Assembly: GCA_030272585.1 (NCBI GenBank)
Contig: BSYQ01000004.1
Span: forward strand, 3,782,001-3,846,000
Origin: Bryopsis sp. KO-2023
Taxonomy: Eukaryota; Chlorophyta; Ulvophyceae; Bryopsidales; Bryopsidaceae
Length of the DNA: 64,000 nt
Reading direction: 5' to 3'
Shown here piece by piece: positions 21,155 through 47,143 of this stretch. The notes beneath the pieces are model-generated. The model had not been told where the DNA came from and did no database searches. It saw only the letters and a list, made by a program, of their open reading frames with translations. A program made the translations under genes and the position numbers. Every line of letters starts with the position of its first letter. Within the stretch, counting starts at the first letter, position 1.

Positions 21155-24100
21155 TTAAACCGATTCATTGGTCAAATAAATCAATGTTCCTGCAAGATCA
21201 GCAATTTCTTCCACACCTTGAGAAAAACATCTCGGGTTTCTTGCGTATTTCCTCAATGTTTTTGCAATGGGCAGCACCGATTTTAACGAATGCTTCGAGT
21301 GACGCCATAGGGGAATCGGATAGCGATCAGGCTCGTTCATTGCAATCCTGGCAGCAAGCACGACAGCTGCCGTCACTTTTGTTGGCTTTACGGATTGTAA
21401 TTTGGGGCGGTACAACACTATTTCAGACAGGTATAAACAGTACGATGTAACCTCATCCACATCCAAGTTGTTGTGCTTGCTTGACTTCAAGTGGCAGTGA
21501 AGTCTTTCTCAAACCAAAACTTAGGAAAGAGAGTGTACCAACGCCTTTTATGAGCGTTGCTAGTACACATGGTAGCAATCACCATACTTGGTGATTGGAC
21601 CCTGCTACCACCGTGTGGGGACAGATGCAAATGTGTCACGACAGGTGACACACGTGGCGACACACATGTACACGTGGCGACACACCGTGACACACGCGTG
21701 TGACATCATAACACGATTATACACCGTGTCCGCCACTCCCATGTGCGCTTCTCCCGCCAACGCCAAAGTCCGACATACACGCATACAGCTCACACAGACG
21801 TGGCACGCGTTACAGTCCGATCGGCGGCGCGCCGGTCTAACGCAGTCGCTTCGCGCGCGCCGGTCTACCCCGCTTCGGTCGCGCCGGTCTACCCCGCGGT
21901 CGCGCCGGTCTACCCCGCTCGCTCGGCGCGCGCCGTTCGCGCAACCCTAAACCCTAAACCCTAAAACCCTAAACCCTAAACCCTAAAAAAACCCTTACTA
22001 TTTTTGGTTTTGCCACGTCTGTGTGAGCTGTATGCGTGTATGTCGGACTTTGGCGTTCGCGGGAGAAGCGGACATGGGAGTGGCGGACATGGGAGTGGCA
22101 GACATGGGGGTACATCCATAACACAAGTAGCCAGCCGCACTGCAAGCACCACCAATAGAATTTGCATTTTATTAAAAAAACGACATATTACGACTTAGGG
22201 GATGAGAAGACCATCGACCGACTTTTTAGTCAAGAAAAACAGAAACAAAATGGGATGCAAGATTGCATCCCATGCAAGAAAAATATCGCTCCACACTGGA
22301 ACAAAACAGTGAGTGATGCAGGTCTGACATGACATAAAAATAACCTCGATTCTTTTATTTCAACCAATTTTGGTCCTGTCACTTACTAGAGATATCTCCA
22401 AACGAAATCATACAAGGTGGGCAAGGCCGCAAAGCCCTCCAACGTTGTGTACAGTGCTCTTTCTTGCACCAGGATGGCCTTTTGAGTTTTGGTGGCTTCT
22501 TTGGGGTTGTTGATGCCCATGCACTCGATGATGTCTTTAGTGCGAGGAGGCATCCTTTCTTCATATTTGCCGGCCATGAAGAGGCACGTTGCGGCAAGCT
22601 GAAACGTAATGAAAACAAATAATGATCAACATAAAGAAAACCATGAAAACCCAATTTATGTGTATATAGAAAAATATGTATATTATTGTCATTACATTAT
22701 CGGGGAGGCCTTACCACGTTGAGTTCAGTTTTAGCTATTTTTTCCGCTGCAAGGTAACGGTCCATGTAATTAATTGACAGGAAGAGCGTCTTCATCTGGA
22801 ACTGGTTCCACACATACACACACATCATAAGACATAATTTCCTCCCACAAAATTCTGCATCAGGCAGCCACTCGATCCAACGAATTCAGTTCAAAAGCAC
22901 ACACTGTGAAAACTGAAAAAAAACAAGAGCATTGCTTCCTGGAACGGCCCGAACAATCAACACTAGAAAACGAGCCACAAATCGATGAAAGAAAAAAGAA
23001 AGCAAAACAGGATATGTCAGTTCGGCACTCCATTGCTCACCTTCATGTGGGTGTGGGTCTCGACCATCCAATTTACGATGTCCATTCTCCCACGAGCAAC
23101 TTCCTTATCCTACAGCAAATTTTCCCTAATAATTTAGGACTCGCATGACACACTGAAAACGATTCAAAAAAATGTCTGGGACATGAGGTCTGCGCCCTTT
23201 CTAATCAGCCACACACATGCCTTGCCACGTAGAATTAAAAAAAATTCCAATAATCAGCCGGCATCATCGGTTCAATCTACTGAAAGGCAACCAGAAGAGA
23301 CCGGCTCGTTTACTCTCCCAGAGTAAAAGAAAGGAACCGAGGAAGAATAATGGTTCATCCTCATGGTAACTTTTTAAGATCCCCGACAGGGAGTTTTTTA
23401 CAGTCTGGTCTGAGTACAAGATAGTTCCCCCCTTCCTCCCAATCCTCCCTGTACTAGGGCATTTTCCTAATGAAAAGGGCACCCGGGGTACAAAGACGCC
23501 ACCCACCTGGTGTTCGAGGTAATTTTCTGGCACAACAAACATATCCTGACGCCGATGATAGTTATCAAAGATACGACTCGCGTAGAACCAGCACGACAAC
23601 GGGTTGTGCTTGTTCATGGAATCTATGTCAGGCGCGTCCGGGCAATTTTGTTGCGTTTTCAGGGTCTCCTCCTCGTCGATCGGCTCCCCGGCCGGCTCGG
23701 AGTCGACGGGATTTTTGGTGGAGGACGGTTCTCGGGCAGTTGGTTGGCGCTTCTTCTGCTTCTGTCGATTCTGTCGTTCCTTTCGTTTCTATCGATCCAA
23801 AAACAAGCTCCACATCAAGAACACACTGGAATACAAGGGCACAACTTTTCTTGTTGTGGCGAAGCATGGAAGCACGGAAGCATGGATTAGGACCACGTGG
23901 CGGTAATCGACACAGTCGAACGGGATTTGACTGGCGACGAACATACCCGCACCCAGCTACTGATTGCCTTGTCGCTACGAGGTCTGGGAGAATGAAGAGG
24001 AACGATGAGAATGGGATAGCTGGCAAGACTTCGTGCGAGCCTCTACATGACCCAACTTCGAGCGAAAACCCCCGCTCGCTGTCTGGGGCGACACCGAGGA

Positions 24101-43549: not shown

Positions 43550-44518
43550 GGGAAAGAAGCCAGGTAAAGAAACGATTGGTGTGGAAAGCCAACGAAAGGG
43601 GTATTGGGGGTTTTGTTTCGTTCTCGTTGACCCTTTTTATAGTCAGTTTTCGGGCATTAAGACACAAGGTGATAGTCTCAAGTCAATTGTTGGTCAAGGC
43701 GAGCGTTCACTCGTTCCGTCCCACCACTGACCAAAAGAAGCCCCCCTTTTCAGTCTACTGTTAATATTGGCACCGACGTTAGCTGGCTGACTCTTACAGC
43801 CCGCAACTTGTGTTCAACACGTGTTTTTATTCTTCACCCTGTTGTCTGTGGGGTGAAGACTTCTGCGCAAAGCCAGCGCTGGCCAGACACATTCGTATAG
43901 CTATGCTTTGTTTCAGACTTCGTTCACTGGGAGCCACCACGAGAAGCAATCCATATGGTTGGGCGAGTCGCAATCGGGTCTGGTGATCTTTCGGAAAATC
44001 TTCCAGCCGCCAGCAACCCCAGCAACCCCGTGATAACATCGATGCCTTGCGGGGCGGGTTGGCTCTGTTTCCCCAATGTTCAGGCCTGCTGGCGGCGGGA
44101 TGAATGGATATTCCCCATTGAGATGGACGCAGCTCTTCGAAGGCTTGCGGGTGGGCGCAATAAAAGTCGCCACGCATAATAGGAGTCGGCCACACTCGTA
44201 ACTTGTGAGGTTATTCACGAGATCGTCCATCGTGCATCAATTTGCAATGTTTCAAATCGATTATTGACAGATGGGGCTGGAAGCGAGCCTGCGGCTTCCA
44301 AAACGGGCATCGCGGTGTGACGCCTTTGGAACTTGGACGAAAGCGGGTGCGAAACGGCCATCAGAACAGGGGAAACCACCGACAGCACCGCATCAGCTGA
44401 ATGTTATTCAAGTCTTCCGCTCGGTCCCAGTCCTTTCATCTGAATTCCCTGAAAACCTCCCTTCCGGAACGGGTCCAGGCGTGGCAGGTGTTGGTGAATT
44501 TTTGGGCGTTGCTCACAC
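43550..44518. promoter_or_regulatory. Divergent upstream region, coiled-coil gene and kinase gene
   Basis: 970 bp between starts at 43549 (-) and 44519 (+). It is more GC-rich than most spacers here. A hairpin TTCACCC/GGGTGAA lies at about 43836-43857. Several overlapping open frames on both strands appear compositional. No intron acceptor lies between the last in-frame stop (TGA at about 44492) and the kinase ATG, which supports that start. Confidence 0.5.
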
Positions 44519-47143
44519 ATGATGGTGGACCACGCTCTTACGAAATTCAATCATTGCTTGTCATCTTTGGGAGGCGAATCATACAATTCGGCAACCGAAA
44601 TATGGAAGTTGCTGCGGACTCCAGAAAGTAGTGAGGGTGTGCGCGTGTGCCACAGCTCTCGGACACGTCTCCGCTCCTCCGAATCCATGCAACGACCACT
44701 GCAGGGATCTGCACCGCAACCGGGACGCCAATCAGCAACCCTCGAGTGGCTTGAGGAGTTCAACGAGTTCTTCGGCACCCTCGTCGCCGCGGCGGGGGAT
44801 TGGCTGCGCTTGTGCGTCACGTTCGTGCGTTTGCTGCAGAGGATGCGCGTGAAGTTCTCTCGGTTGGACTTTCTCGACAAGGATCGCAACAGCTTCACGA
44901 CGTTTGACGATTTGGCTTGCGTATTGGAAAAGGATAGCGGGGCTGATGATAACTTGGAGTTGACGTCGAGACCGCTGCGGGGGTCGAACTGGTCCGTGGC
45001 TAGAGTGGTGGAAAAATCAGCCTTCGTGGTGGGGCGACTACCAGGGCGAGAAGTCCCGGACGACTATAGAATCCTCGGCGAAAAGTTCGGGTATGTCTGC
45101 TTTTTGAGCGTGCCGATAATGAAGGAGCGTCGCGTGATTGGCGCCGTGACGTTGGCTGACACCGAGAGCAACCTGTTTAGAAGTAAAGCTTTTCAACTTC
45201 ATCTGGACGTGCTCGTGAGCTGGTTCGGGTCGCTGCTTCCGGGGGGTCTGCTCGGGGAGCTTTGCAAGTGTTTATACGAAGTTCAGCACCATCGTGAGTT
45301 GGAATTCGCGGTTAGGTCGAGTCTCGAATTCTTTTGGAATAAGTACCCGATGGTCGGGGTCAAGCTTGCGCTGTTCGGGTGCTCGAAGCGCGTCGCAACT
45401 GTTTTTGGAATGAGGGAGGGGGACGATGGAGAGCCTGCATTCAAGGCCGAGGATGGTGCTTTCGAGTTGACCCAGAGAACGGCCGCTGGGCGGCTCCTGT
45501 ACAACACGAGAGAATTTATTGTGGATTGTAAACAGAGCCTCAAGGATATAAGACTAGTGGAAAGAAGCCATCAAGAAACACGAACCGTAATGGTCCTGCC
45601 GATGGTCAATAAAAGCACAACCGAGTCTTCCCAGACCTCCGTTGGGGGTGGTGGGGATGGCTTGGGAGGGTTCACTCTGGGTCTGTCTGGAGGGGGTGGG
45701 GGTGGACCGGGGCCTTCGACCAGCACACCTTCATTCAATCCAGGTGGCATAACTATAGGTTTAGATATAGATCCCATGTCGGGTTCTGGAGGGGAAGCTG
45801 GGGGTGGGGGGTTGCTGATGGGCAGCCGCAGCTCCACCTCGGCTTGGGAGAGGTTGCATGGTGCCATGTATCTGGCTGGACCCAAGACGGGGATCTTCGA
45901 TAGTTGTCGAGGGGAAGTTATGTCATGCTTCAAGCTCATATCATCCAAGTTAGGGGAGCGCTTAGCGGGGGACCTGCGGAGCCCGCTCCAAAATCGCATC
46001 AACAGGGCATCTCAAGGCATTAGGAGCAGAGAGGGGGGGGAAACGTATCAAAGAACGGTCGTCAATGAGGTCACGCATCTACTTTCTTTACGGAAAATGA
46101 ATCGGAGCGGGCAGCTGATGCGGAAGCTGAGAGTGTGGAGGTGCGAAGGGGAGGGCGCGTACGGCCTCGTTTTCGAAGGGAGGTATCAAGGCTCCAGGGC
46201 TGCGATCAAAATTTTTTCAGCACCAACCAACGAGAAAGCGGCGAAAAAGATTGGGACGGAGATTGCATTGATCGCCACCGTTTCGAATGCCAACATTGTA
46301 CCAACATATACGCATTTTTTGGATGTGAGTTATGGGAGCATTCTAGCATTGGCCGCCCCTGACAGACACCCCGGATGGAAGCCCCCGAGAGTGCCCTCGA
46401 CTGGGGGGAGAACCAGCGGACGGCCGAGCGGAAGATTGAGCCCAGATCAATTGGAGTTATCGACGAAATTGTCAGAAAAATGGAACAAGCTGCCGCTGTC
46501 CAAGACTAGGTGGAATGTGTTAGTCATGCAGTACTGCGACAAGGGCACCTTGGAGGCGGAGATCCTGAAACGCATATCCGCTTTCAGGCCCCAAAACGGA
46601 CACATTTCTTACATAAGCTTGGTCAGCACGGCATGTGACATCGCTCACGCGCTGTCAGACTTGCATTTCCAAGGCATAATTCACGGCGATTTGAAACCTG
46701 GGAATATACTGTTGCATTCGGCGGGGGATGACTGTCGGGGCTTCACCGCCAAGGTGGCTGATTTCGGAACCAGCAGGATTTTGGGTACGGACGATCAGCA
46801 ATTCACGGTGCAAGGGACGATAGCTTACATGCCCCCGGAAGTGATCGGGGGTCGTTCTGGCTACCGGGTTTCAACGTCGCTGGACGTGTATTCGTTCGGG
46901 ATCATTCTTTGGGAAATGCAGTCTGGGTGCAAGCCTTACCATGACATGTCGACATCGGAGATCATTTCGGGTGTTTGCAGGACCGGGGAGCTGCAGCTGC
47001 GGCCCGTGTTTGAGAATAACTGCATGAGGAGATACAGAGAATTGGCGCAGCTCTGTTGGCAGCACGAAGAAACGAAAAGACCGACTTTTGATTATATCAC
47101 ACAGAGGCTCGATTCGATGAAACGAGATCTCGGCGGGGGTTGA
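44519..47143 (+). CDS. Intronless GAF-like/protein kinase of the TKL type
   Basis: A single open frame of 874 codons. It starts at one of two adjacent ATGs (44519, 44522), downstream of an in-frame TGA; a later start at 44693 (MQRPLQGSAP) is also possible. Residues about 75-400 look like one or two GAF-type sensor domains (for example YVCFLSVPIMKERRVIGAVT, then KYPMVGVKLALFG). A Gly/Ser-rich linker at about 375-430 follows. The kinase domain is about 535-870: glycine loop GEGAYGLVFEG, Lys in AAIKIF, catalytic loop HGDLKPGNILL, DFG in ADFGTSR, MPPE, SLDVYSFGIILWEM, and a closing CW-x-RP helix typical of TKL kinases. The HRD Arg is Gly, so it is a non-RD kinase. An N-lobe insert (RHPGWKPPRVPSTGG region) of about 60 residues is unusual. 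Predicted role: cytosolic Ser/Thr or dual kinase controlled by a small ligand bound to the GAF region. Confidence 0.92.
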   Translation: MMVDHALTKFNHCLSSLGGESYNSATEIWKLLRTPESSEGVRVCHSSRTRLRSSESMQRPLQGSAPQPGRQSATLEWLEEFNEFFGTLVAAAGDWLRLCVTFVRLLQRMRVKFSRLDFLDKDRNSFTTFDDLACVLEKDSGADDNLELTSRPLRGSNWSVARVVEKSAFVVGRLPGREVPDDYRILGEKFGYVCFLSVPIMKERRVIGAVTLADTESNLFRSKAFQLHLDVLVSWFGSLLPGGLLGELCKCLYEVQHHRELEFAVRSSLEFFWNKYPMVGVKLALFGCSKRVATVFGMREGDDGEPAFKAEDGAFELTQRTAAGRLLYNTREFIVDCKQSLKDIRLVERSHQETRTVMVLPMVNKSTTESSQTSVGGGGDGLGGFTLGLSGGGGGGPGPSTSTPSFNPGGITIGLDIDPMSGSGGEAGGGGLLMGSRSSTSAWERLHGAMYLAGPKTGIFDSCRGEVMSCFKLISSKLGERLAGDLRSPLQNRINRASQGIRSREGGETYQRTVVNEVTHLLSLRKMNRSGQLMRKLRVWRCEGEGAYGLVFEGRYQGSRAAIKIFSAPTNEKAAKKIGTEIALIATVSNANIVPTYTHFLDVSYGSILALAAPDRHPGWKPPRVPSTGGRTSGRPSGRLSPDQLELSTKLSEKWNKLPLSKTRWNVLVMQYCDKGTLEAEILKRISAFRPQNGHISYISLVSTACDIAHALSDLHFQGIIHGDLKPGNILLHSAGDDCRGFTAKVADFGTSRILGTDDQQFTVQGTIAYMPPEVIGGRSGYRVSTSLDVYSFGIILWEMQSGCKPYHDMSTSEIISGVCRTGELQLRPVFENNCMRRYRELAQLCWQHEETKRPTFDYITQRLDSMKRDLGGG

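Follow-up and report, generated by a model that had tools for sequence, protein, structure and literature searches.

A fold-back structure with telomere-type repeats lies in an intron of a cyclin gene of Bryopsis sp. KO-2023, and the locus raises the question of how such a structure came to be there. Three origins were named in the initial annotation: a mobile element that ends in or captures telomeric DNA, a subtelomeric fragment patched into a break by telomerase or by template switching, and the remnant of a head-to-head chromosome fusion. The window, within which positions are counted, is the whole stretch of 64,000 nucleotides analysed (contig BSYQ01000004.1, positions 3,782,001 to 3,846,000). 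The features of the locus are as follows.

21480–22386, minus strand: cyclin intron holding the element, 907 nt; frame read by hand, exons by Pfam
21707–21714, plus strand: left target-site duplication CATAACAC, perfect 8 bp
21715–22116, plus strand: family A MULE-type MITE, 402 bp; left end GATTATACACC..., right end ...GGGTACATC
21724–21805, plus strand: left inverted-repeat arm, 82 nt, by repeat finder
21828–21942, plus strand: GC-rich half of the shared core
21943–21987, plus strand: CCCTAAA-type telomere-like half of the shared core, 6.3 copies
22011–22092, minus strand: right inverted-repeat arm, by repeat finder
22068–22108, plus strand: subterminal 15-bp tandem repeat (GCGGACATGGGAGTG), 2.7 copies
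22117–22124, plus strand: right target-site duplication CATAACAC, perfect 8 bp

The fold-back is borne out by the sequence, by the repeat finder and by the folding energy: as a single strand the element folds with −147.3 kcal/mol compared to a shuffle mean of −72.5 (sd 4.2), and 0 of 100 dinucleotide shuffles were as good. The interval originally assigned to it, 21727–22089, was too short, the element ending at 21715 and 22116. Its arms had been described as 79 bp with about 97% complementarity, which holds for the inner 79 nt (97.5%), the full arms being longer (82 nt, 96%); the 205-bp spacing between them was measured as 205 nt by the repeat finder. Four GC-rich units had been counted, of which three are exact copies of GCGCCGGTCTACCCCGC (at 21857, 21881 and 21902) and the fourth, GCGCCGGTCTA at 21829, is only partial, while the CCCTAAA tract is present as described. 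The outermost bases of the two element ends are not identical to each other, and open frames of up to 124 aa cross the 402-bp element. The host gene, read as a cyclin from the start, has Pfam matches to Cyclin_N in two exon pieces and to Cyclin_C in a third, all on the minus strand. Its intron does measure the 907 nt claimed for it; it starts with GTAAGT, ends with AAG and comes to 497 nt when the element and one duplication (410 bp) are subtracted; insertion of the family A element would have lengthened it. The same intron contains ACACGTGGCGACACAC repeats immediately to the left of the element (21650–21705). Elsewhere in the window, positions 403–1099 form a dense GGA/GGC-rich minisatellite with periods of 12 to 132 bp, and an 881-aa frame at 44498–47143 encodes a protein kinase domain, with a GAF match too weak to reach its cut-off.

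Compared across the genome, as the initial annotation had advised, copies of the element have fixed ends, separate 8-bp target duplications and dispersed sites. Scoring of 40 of 164 candidates in the 91.09-Mb genome gave at least 12 near-complete copies of this family, termed A, and all of these 12 are flanked by a perfect 8-bp target duplication, each of a different sequence. The uninterrupted copies (n = 11) are 339–410 bp long. Their alignment, which comprises 11 of the 12 copies, shows length variation to lie largely in the counts of GC-rich units and of CCCTAAA copies, and two aligned copies are also shorter by one subterminal 15-bp repeat. The copy left out of the alignment (L012, G000:C16:112194-114558) is split near its right end by an inserted element of another family, F, which has the 9-bp GTGGCAGAC on both sides; the split copy has an 8-bp duplication of its own, CCTGGGTG.

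Family A is short and multi-copy and has its ends in common with larger elements, as is characteristic of a MITE, and its long terminal inverted repeats (82 nt, 96%) are those of a MULE. Its duplication length lies within the range of 8–11 bp stated for MULEs in PMC6446971 and outside that of 9–11 bp stated in PMC3310237. The larger elements with family A-type ends are 82–95% identical to the query arm. Perfect 8-bp duplications, and no core unit, were found in those of 9057, 9057 and 9907 bp; duplication bases match at 5 of 8 positions in a same-end copy of 2605 bp and at 7 of 8 in one of 12504 bp. The core was not found in any of the five large A-end copies examined, so that ends without the core exist. 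In the copy on C10, a 729-aa frame contains the MULE domain PF10551 (E 7.6e-7, 29.9 bits, cut-off 27.6), and the FLYWCH domain PF04500 (E 3.2e-5, 24.4 bits, cut-off 23.6) lies in another frame; PF10551 is found also in the C5 and C7 copies, among 13 matches genome-wide. The 12.5-kb element, at L036/L037 (G000:C1:6851866-6864306), holds a nested Ty3-type retrotransposon that includes a chromodomain. The helper of family A is probably a Mutator-like transposase, and the short copies would be moved in trans by the enzyme from the large same-end elements. The 402-bp unit is a short element bearing Mutator-like (MULE) DNA-transposon ends, and the matching MULE-coding large relatives together with the 8-bp duplications identify it as a MULE-type MITE, not a fusion scar or a telomerase patch. 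The initial view that no standard MITE was at hand thus fails for the ends, the size and the duplications, and is right about the core, which is unusual because MITE families with unrelated ends carry it in common.

CCCTAAA is the genome's own telomere repeat, with arrays at the start of 12 of the 20 contig-end stretches of 6 kb, and this match is what speaks for an accident confined to the locus, be it a subtelomeric patch, telomerase healing of a break or the remnant of a head-to-head fusion. None of the 20 contig-end 6-kb stretches, two of which are largely masked (5000 and 4754 N), showed the GC-rich unit GCGCCGGTC, and the whole element recurs at 11 other sites, which argues against a subtelomeric, telomerase or template-switch patch. 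A head-to-head fusion would leave two telomeric tracts in opposite orientation, whereas the tract at the element is single and of one orientation. Given also the dispersed copies with target duplications and the same core in other elements, a local accident has a vanishingly small chance of being the explanation. Both the fusion and the telomerase-patch readings were rejected for the cyclin-intron locus on the dispersed copies, the target duplications and the contig-end negative. The CCCTAAA tract belongs to the core and is not a local scar; an ancient telomerase event in the first core is possible. Capture of telomeric DNA by a mobile element comes closest among the three origins first proposed, given dispersed copies with fixed ends and separate 8-bp duplications, and the initial interpretation as a whole is partly supported.

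How far the core extends beyond family A was determined with a pattern for its internal junction, TCGCGCN{0,2}AACCCTAA, which has 104 exact matches in the genome compared to 0 for the reversed-pattern control. Examined were 41 core-bearing stretches, 14 picked via family A sequence and 27 by the core alone (L022-L028, L060-L079). The core adjoins several kinds of inverted repeat in these stretches, and the families were named A to K without G. None of the 27 core-chosen stretches is without an arm, or a fragment of one, belonging to a defined family. A library-free test gave a clear flanking inverted repeat in 19 of the 27, with L078 set aside for matches of only 14–19 nt; in the other 8, arms are partial, short or recognised only via the family library. 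Across the families read, the GC-rich part is followed by the tract in a constant orientation, an arrangement partly imposed by the junction pattern. The GC-rich part was tested alone because the selection pattern must not be counted, and for families A, B, C, D, E, H, I and J each of the 28 pairings scored above all 200 shuffles, the test window being a fixed stretch before the junction that includes some inner arm in D and H. Pairs with F or K, in which that window is mostly non-core, did so in 0 of 17 cases; what these two families share thus extends little beyond the junction, and no GC-rich core could be demonstrated in their representatives, though by eye one GC-rich unit is present at the second junction of L069 (F). 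Taken together, the GC-rich units and the CCCTAAA tract are a homologous cassette found in short inverted-repeat elements with unrelated ends and differing duplication lengths.

A family was assigned, in some cases tentatively, to 85 of the 100 listed junctions of the 104 (from the sequence read, the doublet spacing or an arm within 350 bp). Conversely, arm matches without a listed junction within 400 bp number 14 of 37 for A, 7 of 20 for E, 7 of 13 for C, 8 of 18 for H, 5 of 17 for J, 26 of 40 for K (after omission of two second match pieces from 42 rows) and 16 of 33 for I, all of these being upper limits because some such arms have a core missed by the list or by the exact pattern, as is the case for three A arms, two on C16 and one on C6.

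The ends of the families were compared over their outer 45 bp, with one representative per family, in 45 pairs and with 200 shuffles each. All shuffles were beaten in just 3 of the 45 pairs (A-B, A-I and B-I); C-E was reached by 1 of 200 shuffles and the remaining 41 pairs by 7 or more. The GC-rich core is accordingly present in five or six unrelated end types, counting A, B and I as one and D with caution. Target duplications of 8 bp were found in B (8, 8 and, in a third copy, 7 of 8 bases), in I (8 and 8), in C (one copy) and in H (one copy, plus a nested copy in L066); of 9 bp in F (in L038, and by eye in L012), in J (9 and 9) and in one copy of K; and of 10 bp in E (10 and 10). The ends of C, H and K were placed by eye so as to fit a duplication. 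With the end strings chosen, no duplication was seen for the E copy L063 and the K copy L061. None was found for family D, which may be a derivative of H, since the two have inner arms in common. Families other than A would be MULE-like going by duplication length, a transposase having been found for A ends only. Arm pairs 3–10 kb apart were seen as candidate large elements of H (G000:C4:6243931-6250899), C (C6:6245319-6249291 and C3:6088409-6091545) and J (C8:5248888-5258656); none of these same-end pairs coincides with any of the 13 PF10551 matches.

E and H have a gapless core of 122 bp, identical at 118 of 122 positions, with unrelated outer ends; it is limited by the GC-rich edge on one side and lies within the telomeric tract on the other. 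Core identity is 126/133 for C-H and 127/135 for C-E, while I and J are identical at 201 of 210 aligned positions. Descent of all families from one element whose ends had diverged beyond recognition around a conserved core would be in keeping with the alignable ends of A, B and I (z 9.6, 5.2 and 4.8) and with C-E being reached by 1 of 200 shuffles, as noted. However, E-H identity is 97% in the core and at chance level in the outer ends, and the duplication lengths differ, 10 bp in E and 8 bp in H, so that single descent appears very improbable. Exchange of ends around the core looks recent in places, to judge from the sequences. One chimera was found (L021, G000:C6:1270470-1270790), whose left arm is A-type (83%) and whose right arm, beyond the core, is E-type (93%); a matching target duplication was not seen in it by eye, and it could alternatively be a deletion between neighbours.

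The sharp E-H edges would also fit a core that was a small mobile element or satellite unit in its own right and had entered several MITE families on separate occasions before these amplified. Insertion of one element into another does occur here. L066 (647–1172) contains an H element nested in a G inverted-repeat element, with the 8-bp duplication TTCCGCGA; L038 (1345–2000, G000:C10) a core-bearing F element inside a 2.6-kb A-type element, with the 9-bp duplication GTCCGCTTC, for which the copy at C1:1961262 reads as the empty counterpart; and L012 the F element described above. Reading by eye, however, revealed no duplication around the core by itself. Moreover, all 27 core-chosen stretches have an arm or arm fragment (15 of the 100 listed junctions being without a family), and the shared block has no single fixed edge, because D and H, and C by eye, have inner arms in common: D and H are identical at 196 of 215 positions on both sides of the core, and C resembles both in its inner arms. 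A separately mobile core is therefore considered unlikely. Family G was excluded from the core-carrying families ahead of the pairwise comparisons, L066 being an H element within a G element; the flanks of the G element there suggest a TA duplication.

Several MULE families might also have independently captured the same GC-rich, telomere-like host sequence in the manner of Pack-MULEs, and MULEs carrying host gene fragments are described in PMC6446971 and PMC8277862. Against this, no source locus outside inverted-repeat elements was seen (with 85 of the 100 listed junctions assigned), and the cores of C, E and H are 94–97% alike over the same block, which is better accommodated by transfer between elements. 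Independent capture is accordingly given little credence.

The reading that we favour, with a probability of roughly 0.75, is that of a MULE-type MITE whose core cassette is handed from one MITE family to another through recombination or template switching, acquiring other ends in the process. Repair or replication of one element would switch template to another inside the shared, structure-prone core, and the new arm would then be copied to the opposite side of the fold-back. With each switch the same core would gain a new end pair, and thereby, it is proposed, access to a different transposase. In PMC8277862, template switching while gaps are filled or forks stall is put forward as a source of chimeric inverted-repeat transposons; by analogy, this known process could accomplish the core transfer, its relevance being that of a capable mechanism and not of evidence for its occurrence here. 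A more far-reaching version, doubtful enough to be offered only tentatively, sees a MITE lineage defined by its core: the core would stall replication forks or form a G-quadruplex or hairpin, serve as the crossover point, have both ends swapped repeatedly and so hop between transposases, as an equivalent of CORE-SINEs among DNA transposons.

Classification of MITEs normally follows their ends, and they are regarded as tied to one transposase. Were the core to outlast the exchange of its ends, non-autonomous elements could escape the death of their helper, end-based classification of MITEs would break down, and a compact system for the study of template switching inside transposons would be available. 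The locus has importance, too, in suggesting that interstitial telomere repeats can be transposon cargo instead of chromosome-fusion scars.

Within the titles and opening abstract lines consulted, which leave the subscription literature largely uncovered, no description was found of one core common to MITEs with unrelated ends. There are nonetheless clear likenesses to known systems. CORE-SINEs are retrotransposons in which a central domain is common to elements with different ends; the central domain across different ends recurs here, but the carriers are DNA transposons. The present elements resemble MULEs and their short derivatives in their long inverted-repeat ends, their 8-bp duplications and the existence of large copies that have the same ends and encode a MULE transposase domain. 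A MULE with 74-bp ends and 8-bp duplications, Spectre, is described in PMC6446971. The present elements differ in that the core was not found in five large same-end copies and is common to other end families. Pack-MULEs and Pack-TIRs, as described in PMC8277862 and PMC3310237, likewise have non-transposon sequence between transposon ends, and template switching is proposed for such chimeras in PMC8277862; unlike theirs, the cargo here is not known as a gene fragment, and it recurs in several unrelated end families. The modular pearl MITEs of bivalves, with satellite-like internal repeats (PMC5139131), resemble these elements in having a repeat-bearing core module within small non-autonomous elements, whereas here the core combines GC-rich and telomere-like sequence and occurs with end types of three different duplication lengths. 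In Galileo, finally, the inverted arms restructure and recruit internal sequence in a comparable manner, but the changes set out in PMC4168063 take place within one element family, and in the elements of Bryopsis sp. KO-2023 the core spans several.
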